The position numbers and the translations under genes were made by a program. The notes beneath the pieces were generated by a model that was not told the origin of the DNA, did not search any database, and worked only from the letters and a program-made list of their open reading frames with translations. This document shows, one piece after another, positions 8,808 to 37,504 of a DNA stretch of 64,000 bases. This DNA is from Flavobacterium sp. CFS9 (GTDB lineage Bacteria > Bacteroidota > Bacteroidia > Flavobacteriales > Flavobacteriaceae), in assembly GCF_041154745.1 (NCBI RefSeq), contig NZ_AP031573.1, forward strand, positions 2,542,001-2,606,000, given 5' to 3'. Position 1 is the stretch's first letter; each line of letters begins with the position of its first letter.

Positions 8808-9426
8808 ATAACTTTTCGTTTAATTGTTGAATGAGTTTTTCTTTTTGATCACTTTCTGTAAGCATTCCGGAGATTGCAATTCCATGAATCCCGGTTTCCA
8901 TTAAAGGAGAGACATCGTTCAGAGTGATTCCTCCAATAGCATAAACAGGAATCTCCAGTTTATTGCGTTTTAGCTCCTGAATAATTTTAAAATAACCTGA
9001 CAATCCCAGAATTGGACTTAGTTTTTCTTTGGTTGTTGTAAAACGAAAGGGCCCCAAACCAATATAATCGCAGCCATTTTTGATGTGATTTTCAATGTCT
9101 TCAAAAGTGTTGGCTGTTGCTCCTATGATTTTGGTATTTCCAAGTATTGTCCTTGCTTCGTCAATTTTCATGTCTGATAGTCCCAAATGAACTCCGTCTG
9201 CGGCGATCTGCTGAGCGAGATGCAGGTTGTCGTTTACAATAAAATTAGCGAGATATTCTTCGCATAAAAATTTTACTGCTTCCGCCAGAGTGAAAGTGTC
9301 TTTCTCCGTTTGATTTTTAAAACGTAACTGTACCCAATCGCATCCGGCATCTAGAGCCTGATGGATATTATACAGTTGTTCCTCTATGGTTTTCCCCTGA
9401 GAGATATATTGTAATTTATGATACAT
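8788..9426 (-). CDS. thiE: Thiamine-phosphate synthase ThiE
   Basis: A 212-residue ThiE that couples HMP-pyrophosphate with thiazole phosphate to thiamine phosphate. Family motifs are [41 protein letters not shown] and AIGGI. It overlaps thiD by 11 bases upstream and thiG by 20 downstream. A second, more divergent ThiE/TenI-like protein is encoded two genes upstream; this copy keeps the canonical motifs and is the likely synthase. Confidence 0.95.
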
Positions 9427-32023: not shown

Positions 32024-35000
32024 TTATTCTTTTTCTCTTCCAAAACGTTCAAAGACATTTACATAGGTGTTAAACGTTACTTTGTGTTTTTCATAGAAAG
32101 TAAGATCGTTGTTTTCTTTCATCACTTGTAATAGACTTCTGTAGCGTTCGATGTCGGTAATAATGTCAATCGCTAAGTCAGTTTGGTCACCCGGACTAAG
32201 AGTAGCATAATAGTTTAGTTCTTCTTTGTATTTCTGAACCAGTTGGTTTAGTAAATCGTGCGCTTTGGCAGTTTCTCCTACTTTGTAATATCCTCCTGCA
32301 AAAGGTTCTACCAATGAATAGTAGCCAAATTTATCTACCGGCATTTTTGTCATTGCCAGTTCGATCACTTTTTTAGCCTTATCGGTTTTGCCTTCAGTAA
32401 TTAACTGATCCATCAAACGGGATAAGTTAGTACGGTAGGTAATACTGTTTCTTCTGGTTTCAGGATCGTGATAAATATTACCATTGCTATTACCCCAATC
32501 CCATTTCATTACGATATCGTATGATTTATCTGCATCCATTTGTCCCATGTCCATAGGTCCTCCGTCTTTTGAAGGTACATTTTTAATAGGTACCAATTTG
32601 TAAACCATTCCGTCTAATTGCAGATAGTTTTTCAGCCATAAGTAATCTTCATCGTCAAAAGCTCCTCCGCTAAAATAAATTGGTCTTTTCCAATTATTGT
32701 TCGCAAGAATGTCCAGCATCATTAAACGGTTTTTGTATAAAGCGCTTCCTTTGATGTCGATATCCATATATGGAACAATAGAGTCGTTGTATTTTGGATT
32801 AACTACTTTGTTTTTGATAATCGCATTTTTGTCAATAGGAACTCTGATTTTGTTTGTAGGGTAAAAATGGATCGTTTGTCCGTTTTGTAAACCTACAGTT
32901 GATTTTGGATTTTTGATGAAATCAATAAAATCTTTGATGTTCCAGCGCGTGTCAATTTTAGGAATATGAGCTACATAGTCCAATTTATCTCCCACATATT
33001 CATCGTGAGTAAAAGATATCGGTAACGGATCAGATTCGTAGGCTTTCGCTTTCATTTGATCAATGTACCAGTCGGTCATGAACAAGCTGGTGTTTACTAT
33101 CTTGACATCGGTTCTGATGCCCTCAATTTCCTGAGCGTACCAAAGCGGGAAGGTGTCGTTATCTCCAATAGTAAATAAAATAGCATTTTTATCACATGAG
33201 TTTAAGTATGCTTTTGCCATTGCAACTGCAGTATATCTTCCCGATCTGTCGTGATCGTCCCAGTTTTGAGAAGCCATTAAAACCGGTGCAGCTAACAAAC
33301 TTCCGGCAATAATAATTGGACCGGCAATTTTAGGAGCGATATATTTTTGAATGCTTTCATAAAGTGAATAAACACCAAAACCAATCCAGATGGCAAACAC
33401 ATAAAAAGATCCTACCAATGCATAATCTCTTTCACGAGGCTCAAAAGGTCTTTCGTTTAAGTATATTTTTAAGGCAATTCCGGTAAATAAGAACAGAGCC
33501 AATAGTACATAAAAACTTTTTAAGTCCTTATTAGCATGGTACATTAATCCGATAAGCCCAAGAATAAATGGCAGGAAGTAATACACATTTCTTCCTTTAT
33601 TGTTGGTGACATCAGAGGGTAAGTTGTCTTGTGAGCCAAGGTGTAAAGAATCAAGAGCTTTGATTCCGCTGATCCAGTTTCCGTCAATATTGTCGTATTT
33701 CCCCTGAACATCACTTTGACGCCCAACGAAATTCCACATCAAATATCTCCAGTACATGTATCCGAATTGATATTCAAACATGAAGCTAAAGTTGTCCACA
33801 GCAGATGGTTTTTCGATAATCAGGTAATCACCATAGCTTTTTAAGAATTTCACATAACCTTCGTTATCAATCTGTTTTTGAGCATAAGCTTTTCTGAATT
33901 CTGAAACTGTTTTTTCAACTTCATTTCGCAATTGTGCTGTAGCTTTGTTGTATTCTTCCTCGGTTAACTGACTGGCATCAATTCCGTATTTTCCTAAATC
34001 CTGCTCGTAGTCATAATTTGGGTTTATTCTGAAGTTAGGCGGAGTCGTAAAGTTGATATAGTTTTGAATGTGTCCCATTTCGGTGCTCCACATTCTTGGA
34101 AGAATCGTTTTTTGGTTGTCGTCAGAGTTTTGCTGAGCGTTTTTGAAATTATTGGTAATGATGTATTTACCTGTTTTGTAATCTCTTTCGTAGTTTGGTG
34201 CTTTGTCTGAATACGGATTTTTTGCATCAAGACCTGCGAAATATTCAGTGTACTGAGGACCGTAAAAAAGAGGATTTACTCCATATTGCTCACGATTATA
34301 GTACGCCAGTACTTCGGCAGCATCCGAAGGTTTATTTTCGTTGATTACAGTATTGGCATTGGCACGTACAGGAAGCATGATCCAAGTAGAGAATCCAATA
34401 AGGATAAAGAGAATGCAAAGGATGATTGTATTGTAGAAAATTAATCCTTTTTGTTTCGTGTATTTTAGCCCAAAATAGAAGAAAGCAATTAGAATCAGTG
34501 TCACGAATATGGTTCCCGAGTTAAAAGGTAATCCAAAACTATTTACCATGAAAACTTCAGTATCTGCAAAGGCTTCCATTGTTAAAGGTAAAAGCAGTTT
34601 GAAAATGAAAAGCAGCACACCAATTACAACAACATTGGCAATAAGAAAGTTTTTGATGGTAACTTTTTCGTAATGTTTAAAGTAATATAGAAAACCAATA
34701 GAAGGAATGGTTAATAAGGCCATAAAGTGAACTCCAAACGAAAGTCCGATAACAAGAGAAATGATCAATAACCATTTGTTTCCTTTTGGTTTGTCCATGT
34801 CCTGTTCCCAGCGTAAACCAAGCCAGAAAAGTAAAGCGATTAAAAGGGAGGCCATGGCATAAACTTCCGCTTCAACAGCATTGAACCAAAAACTGTCTGA
34901 GAAAGTGTAGGCAAGAGCTCCAACAAAAGAACTTCCTAAAATAACAATTGAATTGTTTTGGTCAATTTCGGCAAAACGTCCTACTAGTTTTTTCAAAATC

Positions 35001-35302
35001 ATAGAAGAAGACCAGAACATAAATAGAATGGTAAAGGCACTTGAAAAAACGGACATCATATTAACCATTAAAGCAACGTGTTGTGCATCTGTCGCAAACA
35101 TTGCGAAAAAAGCACCCATCATTTGAAATAAAGGAGCTCCCGGCGGGTGTCCTACTTCCAGTTTTGCGGCAGTGGCAATATATTCTCCGCAGTCCCAGAA
35201 ACTCATCGTGGGTTCAACAGTTAATGTGTAAGTAATTAAAGCGATTGCAAATGCAAACCAACCAATAATAGTATTCCATTTATTGAAATTGAATTGTGCC
35301 AT
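32024..35302 (-). CDS. DUF2723 (GT117-type) membrane glycosyltransferase-like protein
   Basis: A 1092-residue integral membrane protein with about a dozen hydrophobic segments in residues 10-330 and 560-700, then a large soluble C-terminal region. The N-terminal block TLTVEPTMSFWDCGEYIATAAKLEVGHPPGAPLFQMMGAFF, with its acidic pair after WDC, is the DUF2723 signature; such proteins resemble GT-C/protein O-mannosyltransferases. Bacteroidota glycosylate many exported proteins, and a role there is plausible. Acceptor and donor are unknown. Single-gene unit with a terminator. Confidence 0.88.
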   Translation of the reverse strand: MAQFNFNKWNTIIGWFAFAIALITYTLTVEPTMSFWDCGEYIATAAKLEVGHPPGAPLFQMMGAFFAMFATDAQHVALMVNMMSVFSSAFTILFMFWSSSMILKKLVGRFAEIDQNNSIVILGSSFVGALAYTFSDSFWFNAVEAEVYAMASLLIALLFWLGLRWEQDMDKPKGNKWLLIISLVIGLSFGVHFMALLTIPSIGFLYYFKHYEKVTIKNFLIANVVVIGVLLFIFKLLLPLTMEAFADTEVFMVNSFGLPFNSGTIFVTLILIAFFYFGLKYTKQKGLIFYNTIILCILFILIGFSTWIMLPVRANANTVINENKPSDAAEVLAYYNREQYGVNPLFYGPQYTEYFAGLDAKNPYSDKAPNYERDYKTGKYIITNNFKNAQQNSDDNQKTILPRMWSTEMGHIQNYINFTTPPNFRINPNYDYEQDLGKYGIDASQLTEEEYNKATAQLRNEVEKTVSEFRKAYAQKQIDNEGYVKFLKSYGDYLIIEKPSAVDNFSFMFEYQFGYMYWRYLMWNFVGRQSDVQGKYDNIDGNWISGIKALDSLHLGSQDNLPSDVTNNKGRNVYYFLPFILGLIGLMYHANKDLKSFYVLLALFLFTGIALKIYLNERPFEPRERDYALVGSFYVFAIWIGFGVYSLYESIQKYIAPKIAGPIIIAGSLLAAPVLMASQNWDDHDRSGRYTAVAMAKAYLNSCDKNAILFTIGDNDTFPLWYAQEIEGIRTDVKIVNTSLFMTDWYIDQMKAKAYESDPLPISFTHDEYVGDKLDYVAHIPKIDTRWNIKDFIDFIKNPKSTVGLQNGQTIHFYPTNKIRVPIDKNAIIKNKVVNPKYNDSIVPYMDIDIKGSALYKNRLMMLDILANNNWKRPIYFSGGAFDDEDYLWLKNYLQLDGMVYKLVPIKNVPSKDGGPMDMGQMDADKSYDIVMKWDWGNSNGNIYHDPETRRNSITYRTNLSRLMDQLITEGKTDKAKKVIELAMTKMPVDKFGYYSLVEPFAGGYYKVGETAKAHDLLNQLVQKYKEELNYYATLSPGDQTDLAIDIITDIERYRSLLQVMKENNDLTFYEKHKVTFNTYVNVFERFGREKE

Positions 35303-35547: not shown

Positions 35548-35618
35548 TGGTCTATGGTGTAATGGTAACACTACGGTTTTTGGTGCCGTCTTTCTAGGTT
35601 CGAGTCCTAGTAGACCAA
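35548..35618 (+). tRNA. tRNA-Gln (anticodon TTG), copy 1
   Basis: Acceptor arms TGGTCTA / TAGACCA, anticodon stem ACGGT / GCCGT around loop TTTTGGT (anticodon TTG), T-arm CTAGG TTCGAGT CCTAG, discriminator A; CCA is not encoded. It forms its own transcription unit with promoter and terminator. Copy 2 lies 1011 bases downstream and is identical over the tRNA. Confidence 0.95.
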
Positions 35619-35624
35619 CGTAAG

Positions 35625-35652
35625 AAGCCTCTCATTCGAGAGGCTTTTTTTA
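35625..35652 (+). terminator. Terminator of tRNA-Gln copy 1
   Basis: AAGCCTCTC / GAGAGGCTT with an ATTC loop, then seven T residues. Confidence 0.9.
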
Positions 35653-35774
35653 TGCGCTGATGTTTCGGTTAGTATTAGGGTTTTAATAGGTTTTAAGGCT
35701 TTTTGTGTTGACGAGATAGTGGTTGGTTAAGTGTGTTTGGGTTTAAAAGTGAAAAATATAGTACATAATGATTG
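35653..35774. other. Gene-free spacer before the peptide gene
   Basis: G/T-rich on the plus strand with TTAGGGTTTTAATAGGTTTT-like words; no gene seen. Confidence 0.3.
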
Positions 35775-35803
35775 TTGTTTGTAAGTTTTTTTACGTATAT
35801 TTG
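35775..35803 (+). promoter_or_regulatory. Promoter of the double-glycine peptide gene
   Basis: TTG (35775-35777), 18-base spacer, TATATTTG (35796-35803). It predicts a leader of about 50 bases before ATG 35860. Confidence 0.7.
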
Positions 35804-35859
35804 ATGGTAGAATAAGTTTTTTTGTTATAGCTAATTAATAATTCTAAAAAATTAAAATT

Positions 35860-36036
35860 ATGAAAACTATTAAAGAAATGAATTTTACAGAGTTGGATTC
35901 TACTCAAATGAAACAAGTAAAAGGTGGGGGGCTTTTGAGTGATGCTTTAGCCTTGCTGAATGAGGGTAAGACAATATGGGAGGTAGCACGAATTCTAGGT
36001 GTAACTGTTCAGCAATTACTTGCCGTACTTGTCTAG
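35860..36036 (+). CDS. Double-glycine leader peptide (bacteriocin or signal peptide precursor)
   Basis: A 58-residue gene, easily missed because it is short. The leader MKTIKEMNFTELDSTQMKQV ends in KGGG; relative to cleavage after Gly23, the hydrophobic residues Val20 (-4), Met17 (-7), Leu12 (-12) and Phe9 (-15) sit exactly at the positions conserved in double-glycine leaders cut by C39-peptidase ABC exporters. The core (about 35 residues, LLSDALALL then IWEVARILGVTVQQLLAVLV) has no Cys, looks amphipathic-helical, and its last part resembles helix-turn-helix helices. The gene has its own promoter and terminator. No exporter is in this window. Confidence 0.75.
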   Translation: MKTIKEMNFTELDSTQMKQVKGGGLLSDALALLNEGKTIWEVARILGVTVQQLLAVLV

Positions 36037-36094
36037 TTTTGTGAAAAAAAAAGAAACGTTGTTGAATTTTTAAGTTCAAAAATGTTTGAAAATA

Positions 36095-36133
36095 AAAAGA
36101 GAAAGTTTTGCGTTGTGAAACTTTCTCTTTTTT
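36095..36133 (+). terminator. Terminator of the double-glycine peptide gene
   Basis: AAAAAGAGAAAGTTT / AAACTTTCTCTTTTT with a 9-base loop and a long T-run, about 60 bases after the stop codon. Confidence 0.9.
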
Positions 36134-36509
36134 TTTGTTTTTATGATGTTTGAAGTGAGTGTTTGTTGTTTTGTTAGTAGTGTTTCTGGTGTTCCAAGTG
36201 TTGCGTGTGTTTGCCGAAAAAAGGGGAGGATGTGGCTGAAGTTTCTGAAATTTCATTTGTGATTTTCTTGATTTTTGGTCTTTATGTATGGATGTTATTA
36301 CGATAAGTGTTTGTTGAGAGGAAAAAAATACTGGAGTGTGTGAAGAAAAAAAACAAAAAATTTGTGCTTTGTTTGTTTTTGGGGTTAGTGATTGGTTTTG
36401 TGAGGTTTGTGAGAGGTTTTAGGATTGGAGAAAAGGGGTGAGAGTGCCAAGGGGGTGGTGTTATGATTTGTTAATTCTGAAATATTGACATTTTTGTTGA
36501 GAAAAAGCT
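36134..36509. other. Gene-free spacer between peptide gene and tRNA-Gln copy 2
   Basis: About 375 bases, strongly G/T-rich on the plus strand (GTGTTTGTTG-type runs). Frames open here run through the tRNA or the terminator and have tRNA-derived sequence, so none is credible. No hairpin or repeat stands out. Confidence 0.35.
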
Positions 36510-36539
36510 TGTGTAAACTAAAAAAAGTTTTAATTTTGC
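36510..36539 (+). promoter_or_regulatory. Promoter of tRNA-Gln copy 2
   Basis: TTG (36510-36512), 19-base spacer, TAATTTTG (36532-36539). Confidence 0.8.
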
Positions 36540-36558
36540 ACTCGCTTAATCGCACTGC

Positions 36559-36629
36559 TGGTCTATGGTGTAATGGTAACACTACGGTTTTTGGTGCCGT
36601 CTTTCTAGGTTCGAGTCCTAGTAGACCAA
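36559..36629 (+). tRNA. tRNA-Gln (anticodon TTG), copy 2
   Basis: Identical in sequence to the tRNA at 35548-35618. Followed by its own terminator. Confidence 0.95.
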
Positions 36630-36636
36630 CAATAAG

Positions 36637-36679: not shown

Positions 36680-37504
36680 CTAAATTTTAAAAGTAAGTAT
36701 CGGTCTGATAGCATGATTGACTAATCCCTCGCTGATGCTGCCATTGAAAAAATGAGCAAAGCCGGTTCTTCCGTGTGTACACATTCCTATGATGTCGGCA
36801 TTGATGCTGTTGGAGAAGTTGATGATTCCTTTTTCGATGTTGGTGTCGTTGTAAATATGAGCAGAGTAATTGGTTAAGTTGAATTCGGTTGCGAAGGTGT
36901 CTATTGTTTTCTGCAATTCATGAGTTGGTTTAAAACTGTTTGGGGTGCAGATGGTGACTAGGTGTATTTTGGAATCAAAAACACTGGCGAGTTTTAGGAA
37001 TCTTTTGAAAGGTTCCTTGGTTTCTTCTGAGAAATCTGACGCAAAAACAATAGTAGAGGTGTTGAAATTTGTAGTGTCTTTTTTTATTACTAGAACTGGG
37101 ATTTCAGAATTTCGAACTACTTTTTCTGTATTTGATCCTATTAATAGTTCTTCCATGCCTGACGATCCGTGTGATCCCATTACGATCAAATCGATTTCGT
37201 ATTCTTTGCTTACCTGGGTGATGCCGTGAATGGGTTTGTCTATTTTTACAATTTCCGTAATCGAAATTCCGTCCAGATAGGGTCTTGAAGAAACCTGATC
37301 CAGCATCTCGTTGGCTTTTTTCATGAAAAGCATTGTTTCGGGAATGCTTGCGCCTCCTAAAATGGCATCGTTCATCTGGCTGGGTAATTCGAGCATGTGT
37401 AAAATGATGATCTCAGCATTGTTTTTCTTTGCAATTTGTGAGGCAACTTTTAAAGCGTCCTCTGCATGTTCGGAGAAGTCGGTAGGTACTAGGATTCTTT
37501 TCAT
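36680..37504 (-). CDS. Tandem-domain universal stress protein
   Basis: A 274-residue cytoplasmic protein with two UspA domains. Domain 1 (1-142) keeps the ATP-binding pattern VMGSHGSSGMEELLIGSNTEKVV with VPTDFSEHAEDAL at its start. Domain 2 (about 150-274) starts FASDFSEETKEPF and has MCTHGRTGFAHFFNGSISEGLVN, a looser version with Gly and Ser still present. Such proteins respond to stress or growth arrest. Single gene, own transcript. Confidence 0.93.
   Translation of the reverse strand: MKRILVPTDFSEHAEDALKVASQIAKKNNAEIIILHMLELPSQMNDAILGGASIPETMLFMKKANEMLDQVSSRPYLDGISITEIVKIDKPIHGITQVSKEYEIDLIVMGSHGSSGMEELLIGSNTEKVVRNSEIPVLVIKKDTTNFNTSTIVFASDFSEETKEPFKRFLKLASVFDSKIHLVTICTPNSFKPTHELQKTIDTFATEFNLTNYSAHIYNDTNIEKGIINFSNSINADIIGMCTHGRTGFAHFFNGSISEGLVNHAIRPILTFKI

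Follow-up and report, generated by a model that had tools for sequence, protein, structure and literature searches.

A candidate orphan double-glycine peptide with a variable core in Flavobacterium sp. CFS9

It is often the adjoining exporter that leads to the discovery of a double-glycine peptide. A 64,000-nucleotide stretch of Flavobacterium sp. CFS9 (contig NZ_AP031573.1, positions 2,542,001 to 2,606,000; hereafter the window) raises the question of what such a peptide does when its gene stands alone: a 58-codon open reading frame (ORF) is bracketed there by two copies of tRNA-Gln, near a convergent gene for a universal stress protein (UspA). The gene is real, under selection and an orphan. 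We consider it likely that its product is cleaved at Gly23 and exported; the whole statement, that this is a bacteriocin-like orphan double-glycine peptide leaving the cell through an exporter encoded in trans, is one towards which we lean more cautiously. The kind of system is already known, and what sets this case apart is the orphan position, the helix-turn-helix (HTH)-like core and the variability at one locus. None of the titles listed in searches of an open-licence library reports the 58-residue peptide.

A conserved frame and its double-glycine leader

The ORF was found on the forward strand as an earlier note on this DNA had described it, and encodes MKTIKEMNFTELDSTQMKQVKGGGLLSDALALLNEGKTIWEVARILGVTVQQLLAVLV. 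That note had proposed conservation in related genomes as a check, which the frame passed. A protein search of 398 genomes of the genus matched 19 at E up to 0.1, and a profile of ten sequences matched 24 at E up to 0.01. Strong profile matches (E < 1e-9) were obtained in 12 genomes (the carriers), namely the host (G000), G182, G290, G230, G206, G253, G409, G100, G159, G304, G125 and G144; an identical peptide is encoded in Flavobacterium tructae (L010). The window and ten further loci, 11 of the 12 in all, have the gene between homologs of the same two flanking genes, encoding a TMEM260-like membrane protein and UspA; in G144 it occupies another place, not between these genes. Among 397 genomes at the family level, ten matched at E up to 0.001, the window's own included; the best match apart from the own genome has E 5e-7, so that strong homologs are confined to the genus.

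The coding sequences of the window and of G182, its nearest carrier, differ at 4 of 177 bases, all of them third positions and all synonymous, while in the flanks 14 of the 180 bases upstream are changed, 7 of the 148 that align immediately past the gene and 68 of the 516 from there to the second tRNA. The solely synonymous change therefore points to purifying selection, as judged from one pair and few changes, and further weight comes from the homologs of ten additional genomes. A chance ORF is ruled out by the conservation in relatives together with this selection pattern.

The conserved half of the peptide is the leader. It ends in KGG|G and places V20, M17, L12 and F9 at −4, −7, −12 and −15 from the cut after Gly23, exactly the double-glycine pattern that had been claimed. 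L12, M17, V20, G22 and G23 are invariant in all 11 distinct sequences, and F9 is present in 10. The predicted contrast between a conserved leader and a variable core was also observed, the mean column entropy being 0.87 bits for the leader and 1.90 bits for the core (the latter over 33 columns with 8 or more letters). Of all 4845 ways to choose four leader positions (residues 2–21), the set −15/−12/−7/−4 gives the lowest entropy. In the co-crystal of the C39 domain of LahT, residues −4, −7 and −12 occupy the protease groove, and cleavage is impaired by charged residues at −4 and −7 and by most changes at −12 (PMC6363468). No other evidence speaks as strongly as the conservation of these positions for an export leader in the conserved half. 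In the alignments, G182 was omitted from A2 and A3 (its protein is identical to that of the window), the end of G253 was trimmed at an assembly gap of N, and G125, which is absent from A1, was found by profile and included from A2.

Possible exporters in trans and the proposed mechanism

An adjacent exporter is usual for substrates of C39 peptidase-containing ATP-binding cassette (ABC) transporters, although we do not treat it as a strict requirement. The peptide has the double glycine and the hydrophobic residues at −4, −7 and −12, and the nearest full C39 exporter lies about 0.41 Mb from its gene, in agreement with the earlier remark that it is far from any exporter. The host genome, a single contig of 5.37 Mb, does encode such transporters, and the proposal thereby passes the second check set in the earlier note: there are three full-length C39 exporters and one C39-like domain just below the cut-off, and C39 exporters occur in all 12 carriers. 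The type A exporter (548 kb) has beside it an HlyD-like partner, several double-glycine peptides and two genes for Rce1-like (CPBP) proteases; type B is at 2.091 Mb; and type C, at 2.168 Mb, has in its vicinity a VKOR-domain gene that matches C39 weakly.

The type C exporter is present in every carrier at 89–100% identity, and it is the sole full C39 exporter in G182, G304 and G125, as well as in G253 if a 523-residue frame that matches C39 weakly is disregarded. Export in trans is therefore plausible and, by elimination, would proceed through type C in the strains that have no other full C39 exporter. The peptide neighbouring type C itself has a somewhat different leader.

Leader resemblance leads to type A. 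Searched with the profile at E up to 10, the host genome gave three further places. The best two (552 and 555 kb) are double-glycine peptides, one at the type A exporter and one 6.5 kb away from it; the stretch retrieved around the third (398 kb, E 1.1) contains no A, B or C exporter. Thirteen other regions of the genus gave weaker profile matches, and the type A exporter was present in 11 of the 13 retrieved stretches, the remaining two showing HlyD pieces only (L109) or nothing (L118). The leader therefore resembles leaders found with type A. By eye, the peptides of the Flavobacterium type A loci (L064 and relatives) have a leader of nearly equal length and register, with hydrophobic residues at −15/−12/−7/−4 followed by GG or AG; they likewise have small cores and are found in the same genome. 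They differ in lying near their own exporter and, in L064, also near the two Rce1-like (CPBP) membrane protease genes, whereas the window peptide stands alone at a fixed chromosomal place and has an HTH-like core. Of six regions from five of the nine other genomes matched at the family level, five carry double-glycine peptides along with at least one gene of the C39, HlyD or CPBP-like kind, which in L215 is a CPBP-like gene only; L213 has no double-glycine peptide with such a gene. As separate observations, L118 and L121 encode Cys-rich peptides with double-glycine leaders, while none of the three exporter types was found in the stretch retrieved around them, and L211 and L212, from another genus of the family, contain arrays of double-glycine peptides with Gly- and Val-rich cores beside a type A-like C39 exporter (59–60% identity).

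According to the mechanism that we propose, the gene would encode a precursor from which a peptide of about 35 residues, free of Cys and of modifications, is secreted. The leader of 23 residues would dock by F9, L12, M17 and V20 on the C39 domain of a transporter encoded elsewhere, which would cut after Gly23 and, with the help of its HlyD-like partner, export the core. The likeliest exporter would be the widely conserved type C, with the bacteriocin-type exporter A as an accessory candidate wherever a strain carries it. Once released, the three-helix peptide would most probably be a narrow, bacteriocin-like agent against close relatives. Such antagonism would explain why the cores vary while the leader stays constant, why presence is patchy and why a copy has decayed. 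The earlier proposal of an orphan bacteriocin or signal that uses a transporter elsewhere is thus supported by the conserved frame, the contrast between leader and core and the C39 exporters in the genome. If it is right, one conserved exporter (type C) may serve peptides scattered over flavobacterial genomes, and orphans that combine a conserved position and leader with a variable core can be missed.

Several results weigh against the bacteriocin-like reading with export in trans. The eight neighbouring genes (Pfam) include no exporter, immunity or modifying-enzyme gene, and the stretch from the peptide gene to the second tRNA contains short open frames only, none recognisable as a gene; the cognate immunity gene expected near a class II bacteriocin is thus missing from both. 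Immunity genes are hard to spot by homology. The type C exporter is present in all 30 genomes tested, in one as a fragment only, and so its presence in the carriers discriminates nothing. Type A (at least 85% identity) was detected in 5 of 12 carriers versus 26 of 68 non-carriers, when 14 candidates per genome were scored in the genomes whose UspA is at least 73% identical (82, minus G322 and G299); its presence and the peptide are therefore not tied, and a strict pairing with this exporter is ruled out. By hydrophobicity alone, 15 of the 4845 sets of leader positions do equally well, because −20 and −17 are always hydrophobic too. The window peptide reaches no family cut-off in the profile libraries. 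Finally, net core charge runs from −6 to +1 across the members and is mostly acidic (−1 in the window), which is unlike that of typical cationic bacteriocins.

Two described groups resemble the proposed system in part. Bacteroidetocins are also Bacteroidetes peptides with a double-glycine leader and a C39 ABC exporter, with no obvious immunity gene; they have at least two Cys, a leader of 15–16 residues, and an adjacent exporter and transmembrane-protein gene, mostly with a thiol oxidoreductase gene too (PMC6671954). The window peptide has none of these latter features, and membership is ruled out by the lack of Cys and of an adjacent exporter. Class II microcins of the Enterobacterales, compared by description, share the double-glycine leader, the C39 transporter and the variable core, and in the account given there two pairs of verified microcins share an export system (PMC9746304). 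They belong to another phylum, and the same account reports an immunity candidate for 93.7% of the E. coli matches.

The core and the competing explanations

Cys is absent from the core of the window peptide and from that of every family member, as had been stated for the window. This feature, and the absence of a radical-SAM gene from the neighbours, also distinguish the peptide from the radical-SAM-modified peptides whose leaders are described by TIGR04149. That model represents Bacteroidetes double-glycine leaders and matched 9 of 11 members at E up to 1; membership is ruled out by a score of 16.8 bits against a cut-off of 25.

The cores vary widely. Pairwise similarity, measured by alignment against 200 shuffles each, ranges from z = 19.6 down to below 0. 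The cores of G290, G230, G253, G100 and G159 form a related group to which the window is weakly joined (z 1.8–5.8); G409 and G304 form a pair, G409 also touching G253 at z 6.7; and those of G206, G125 and G144 have loose links to other cores or none. Short ORFs with a stretch resembling the core of the window peptide, LLNRGF.PWEVA.IL, and no leader were also seen in L002, L022 and L024 (E 0.015–0.09), and may be due to chance.

The same export and cleavage could also deliver a cell–cell signal (pheromone) instead of an antagonist. This is the chief rival, which we regard as possible but unlikely. It is favoured by the mostly acidic cores and by a single gene with its own −7 box and terminator and no immunity gene among the neighbours, and weak leader-profile matches to pheromone precursors point the same way (BlpC in 7 of 11 members at E up to 1, ComC in 6 of 11 at E up to 0.1). 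The scores stay below the cut-offs (BlpC 16 vs 70 bits, ComC 15 vs 20.4), which rules out membership in either family, and no sensor kinase or receptor gene is found among the eight neighbours. An adjacent quorum-sensing kinase is ruled out likewise, the extra genes present in four syntenic relatives encoding an aldehyde dehydrogenase and an AraC-type regulator. The wide differences between the cores of different species also speak against a signal, though pherotypes can differ as well.

An amphipathic helix and an HTH-like C-terminus had also been proposed for the core. The best 18-residue hydrophobic moment of the window peptide is 0.52 (p 0.02, 500 shuffles). Judged as a class II bacteriocin core, small and cationic or amphiphilic, the peptide gives mixed signs: this moment, no Cys and no modifying enzyme among the eight neighbours, beside a net charge of −1. 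The claim of an amphipathic helix is weak, as p 0.05 is attained in just 3 of 11 members. As regards the HTH, the best Pfam match of the peptide is HTH_7 (E 6e-4), with 20.4 bits against a cut-off of 23.8, and a match to an HTH model at E up to 0.1 was obtained for 1 of 11 members, the window's own. AlphaFold2, in contrast, predicted a compact three-helix, HTH-like fold for the core of the window peptide; the relative from G159 was also modelled.

The HTH fold is usually met inside DNA-binding proteins, and the peptide might accordingly be an intracellular mini-HTH protein that is never exported, its double-glycine pattern being coincidental. HTH proteins top the Foldseek list for the window (probability up to 0.97, with close alignments at a root-mean-square deviation of about 0.6–1.4 Å over about 32–35 residues), and likewise for the G159 relative. 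Neither Foldseek nor VIA returned a significant match for the window's model, nor did Foldseek for that of G159, and a sequence search of the PDB gave five weak repeats of one chain, 8vd6 (independent E about 2–3 each, summed E 1e-15). Given the sub-cut-off HTH_7 score and the leader conservation, we think this explanation improbable. A bolder combination of the two ideas, which we hold to be doubtful, is that exported "naked" mini-HTH domains with few basic residues and a double-glycine leader have diversified at the tRNA-Gln/UspA spot, and would act as strain-specific secreted signals or toxins via a conserved exporter in trans.

Locus, promoter and dynamics

The features of the locus are listed in Table 1. 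An Rfam scan of the peptide locus found the two tRNAs and nothing further.

Table 1. Features at the peptide locus, in window coordinates
Feature	Position	Strand	Remarks
58-residue double-glycine leader peptide precursor	35860..36036	+	ORF translation, relatives, synonymous change
Leader, residues 1–23, MKTIKEMNFTELDSTQMKQVKGG	35860..35928	+	conserved part; column entropy
Core, residues 24–58, GLLSDALALLNEGKTIWEVARILGVTVQQLLAVLV	35929..36033	+	predicted helices 25–34, 39–46, 50–57
tRNA-Gln (TTG anticodon), first copy	35548..35619	+	
tRNA-Gln (TTG anticodon), second copy	36559..36630	+	
Universal stress protein (Pfam Usp; UspA)	36680..37504	−	convergent to peptide gene; positional anchor in relatives
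1092-residue TMEM260-like membrane protein	32024..35302	−	other positional anchor in relatives
TTG, candidate upstream promoter element	35775..35777	+	reads TTA in G182
TATATTTG, candidate −7 box	35796..35803	+	fits flavobacterial TAnnTTTG
Intrinsic terminator	36094..36132	+	folding energy vs shuffles

The gene is patchily distributed among close relatives. The peptide was detected within 1.5 kb of UspA at 4 of the closest 30 UspA loci, the window's own included (from 356 genomes with a UspA match). G397, with 93% nucleotide identity around the locus, has one tRNA-Gln and no peptide, as would follow if the tRNA-Gln repeats on either side of the peptide (window 35548–36630; about 180 bp including flanks) had recombined, or if the locus were still in its pre-insertion state there. 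In G125 (L072, about 8950–9110) a tandem copy with a different core, missing the first part of the leader, lies upstream of the intact gene; to judge from the sequence, this is duplication, diversification and decay at one locus. The patchy presence, the empty relative and the truncated copy would fit the remnant of a bacteriocin cassette in decay, which formerly had a dedicated exporter and now releases nothing in the host strain, but we consider this very improbable in view of the solely synonymous change relative to G182 and because frame, −7 box and terminator are all intact.

In eight other carriers (G290, G206, G409, G159, G230, G100, G304 and G125) both tRNA genes precede the peptide gene, and in the last four of these the aldehyde dehydrogenase and AraC-type regulator genes are found between the pair and the peptide. 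The interval from tRNA-Gln to UspA, with these two genes, appears as a small variable spot in L067, L069, L070 and L072.

The promoter that had been claimed was recovered in part: TTG and TATATTTG are indeed 18 bases apart, TATATTTG beginning 64 nt ahead of the ATG, but the exact TTG is not conserved, since G182 has TTA. The sequence TAnnTTTG is given as the consensus of the sigma-A −7 box mapped in F. psychrophilum (PMC9723704). An exact TAnnTTTG occurs within 100 nt upstream of the gene in 9 of 12 carriers, one of the other three being masked by N, and starts between −75 and −50 in 6 of 12, versus 271 of 6000 mononucleotide shuffles. A scan for E. coli-type promoters, which does not cover the flavobacterial type, gave background numbers (3 found, 2.8 expected). 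The strong terminator was confirmed, with a folding energy of −19.1 kcal/mol (z = −6.5) that none of 200 shuffles equalled. These elements suggest that the gene would be transcribed as a unit of its own.

In seven carrier loci (L089, L091, L015, L016, L018, L020 and L023) a block like TATCAGTATTTT stands directly before TAnnTTTG, followed in four of them by ATACTGCAG. This pair of motifs is not present in the window or in G182 and has one occurrence elsewhere, in L117; the TATCAGTATTTT-like block is a possible regulator site upstream of the peptide genes. Downstream of the terminator, positions 36150–36599 of the window are apparently non-coding and show a very strong GC skew (0.56–0.69) on the + strand.
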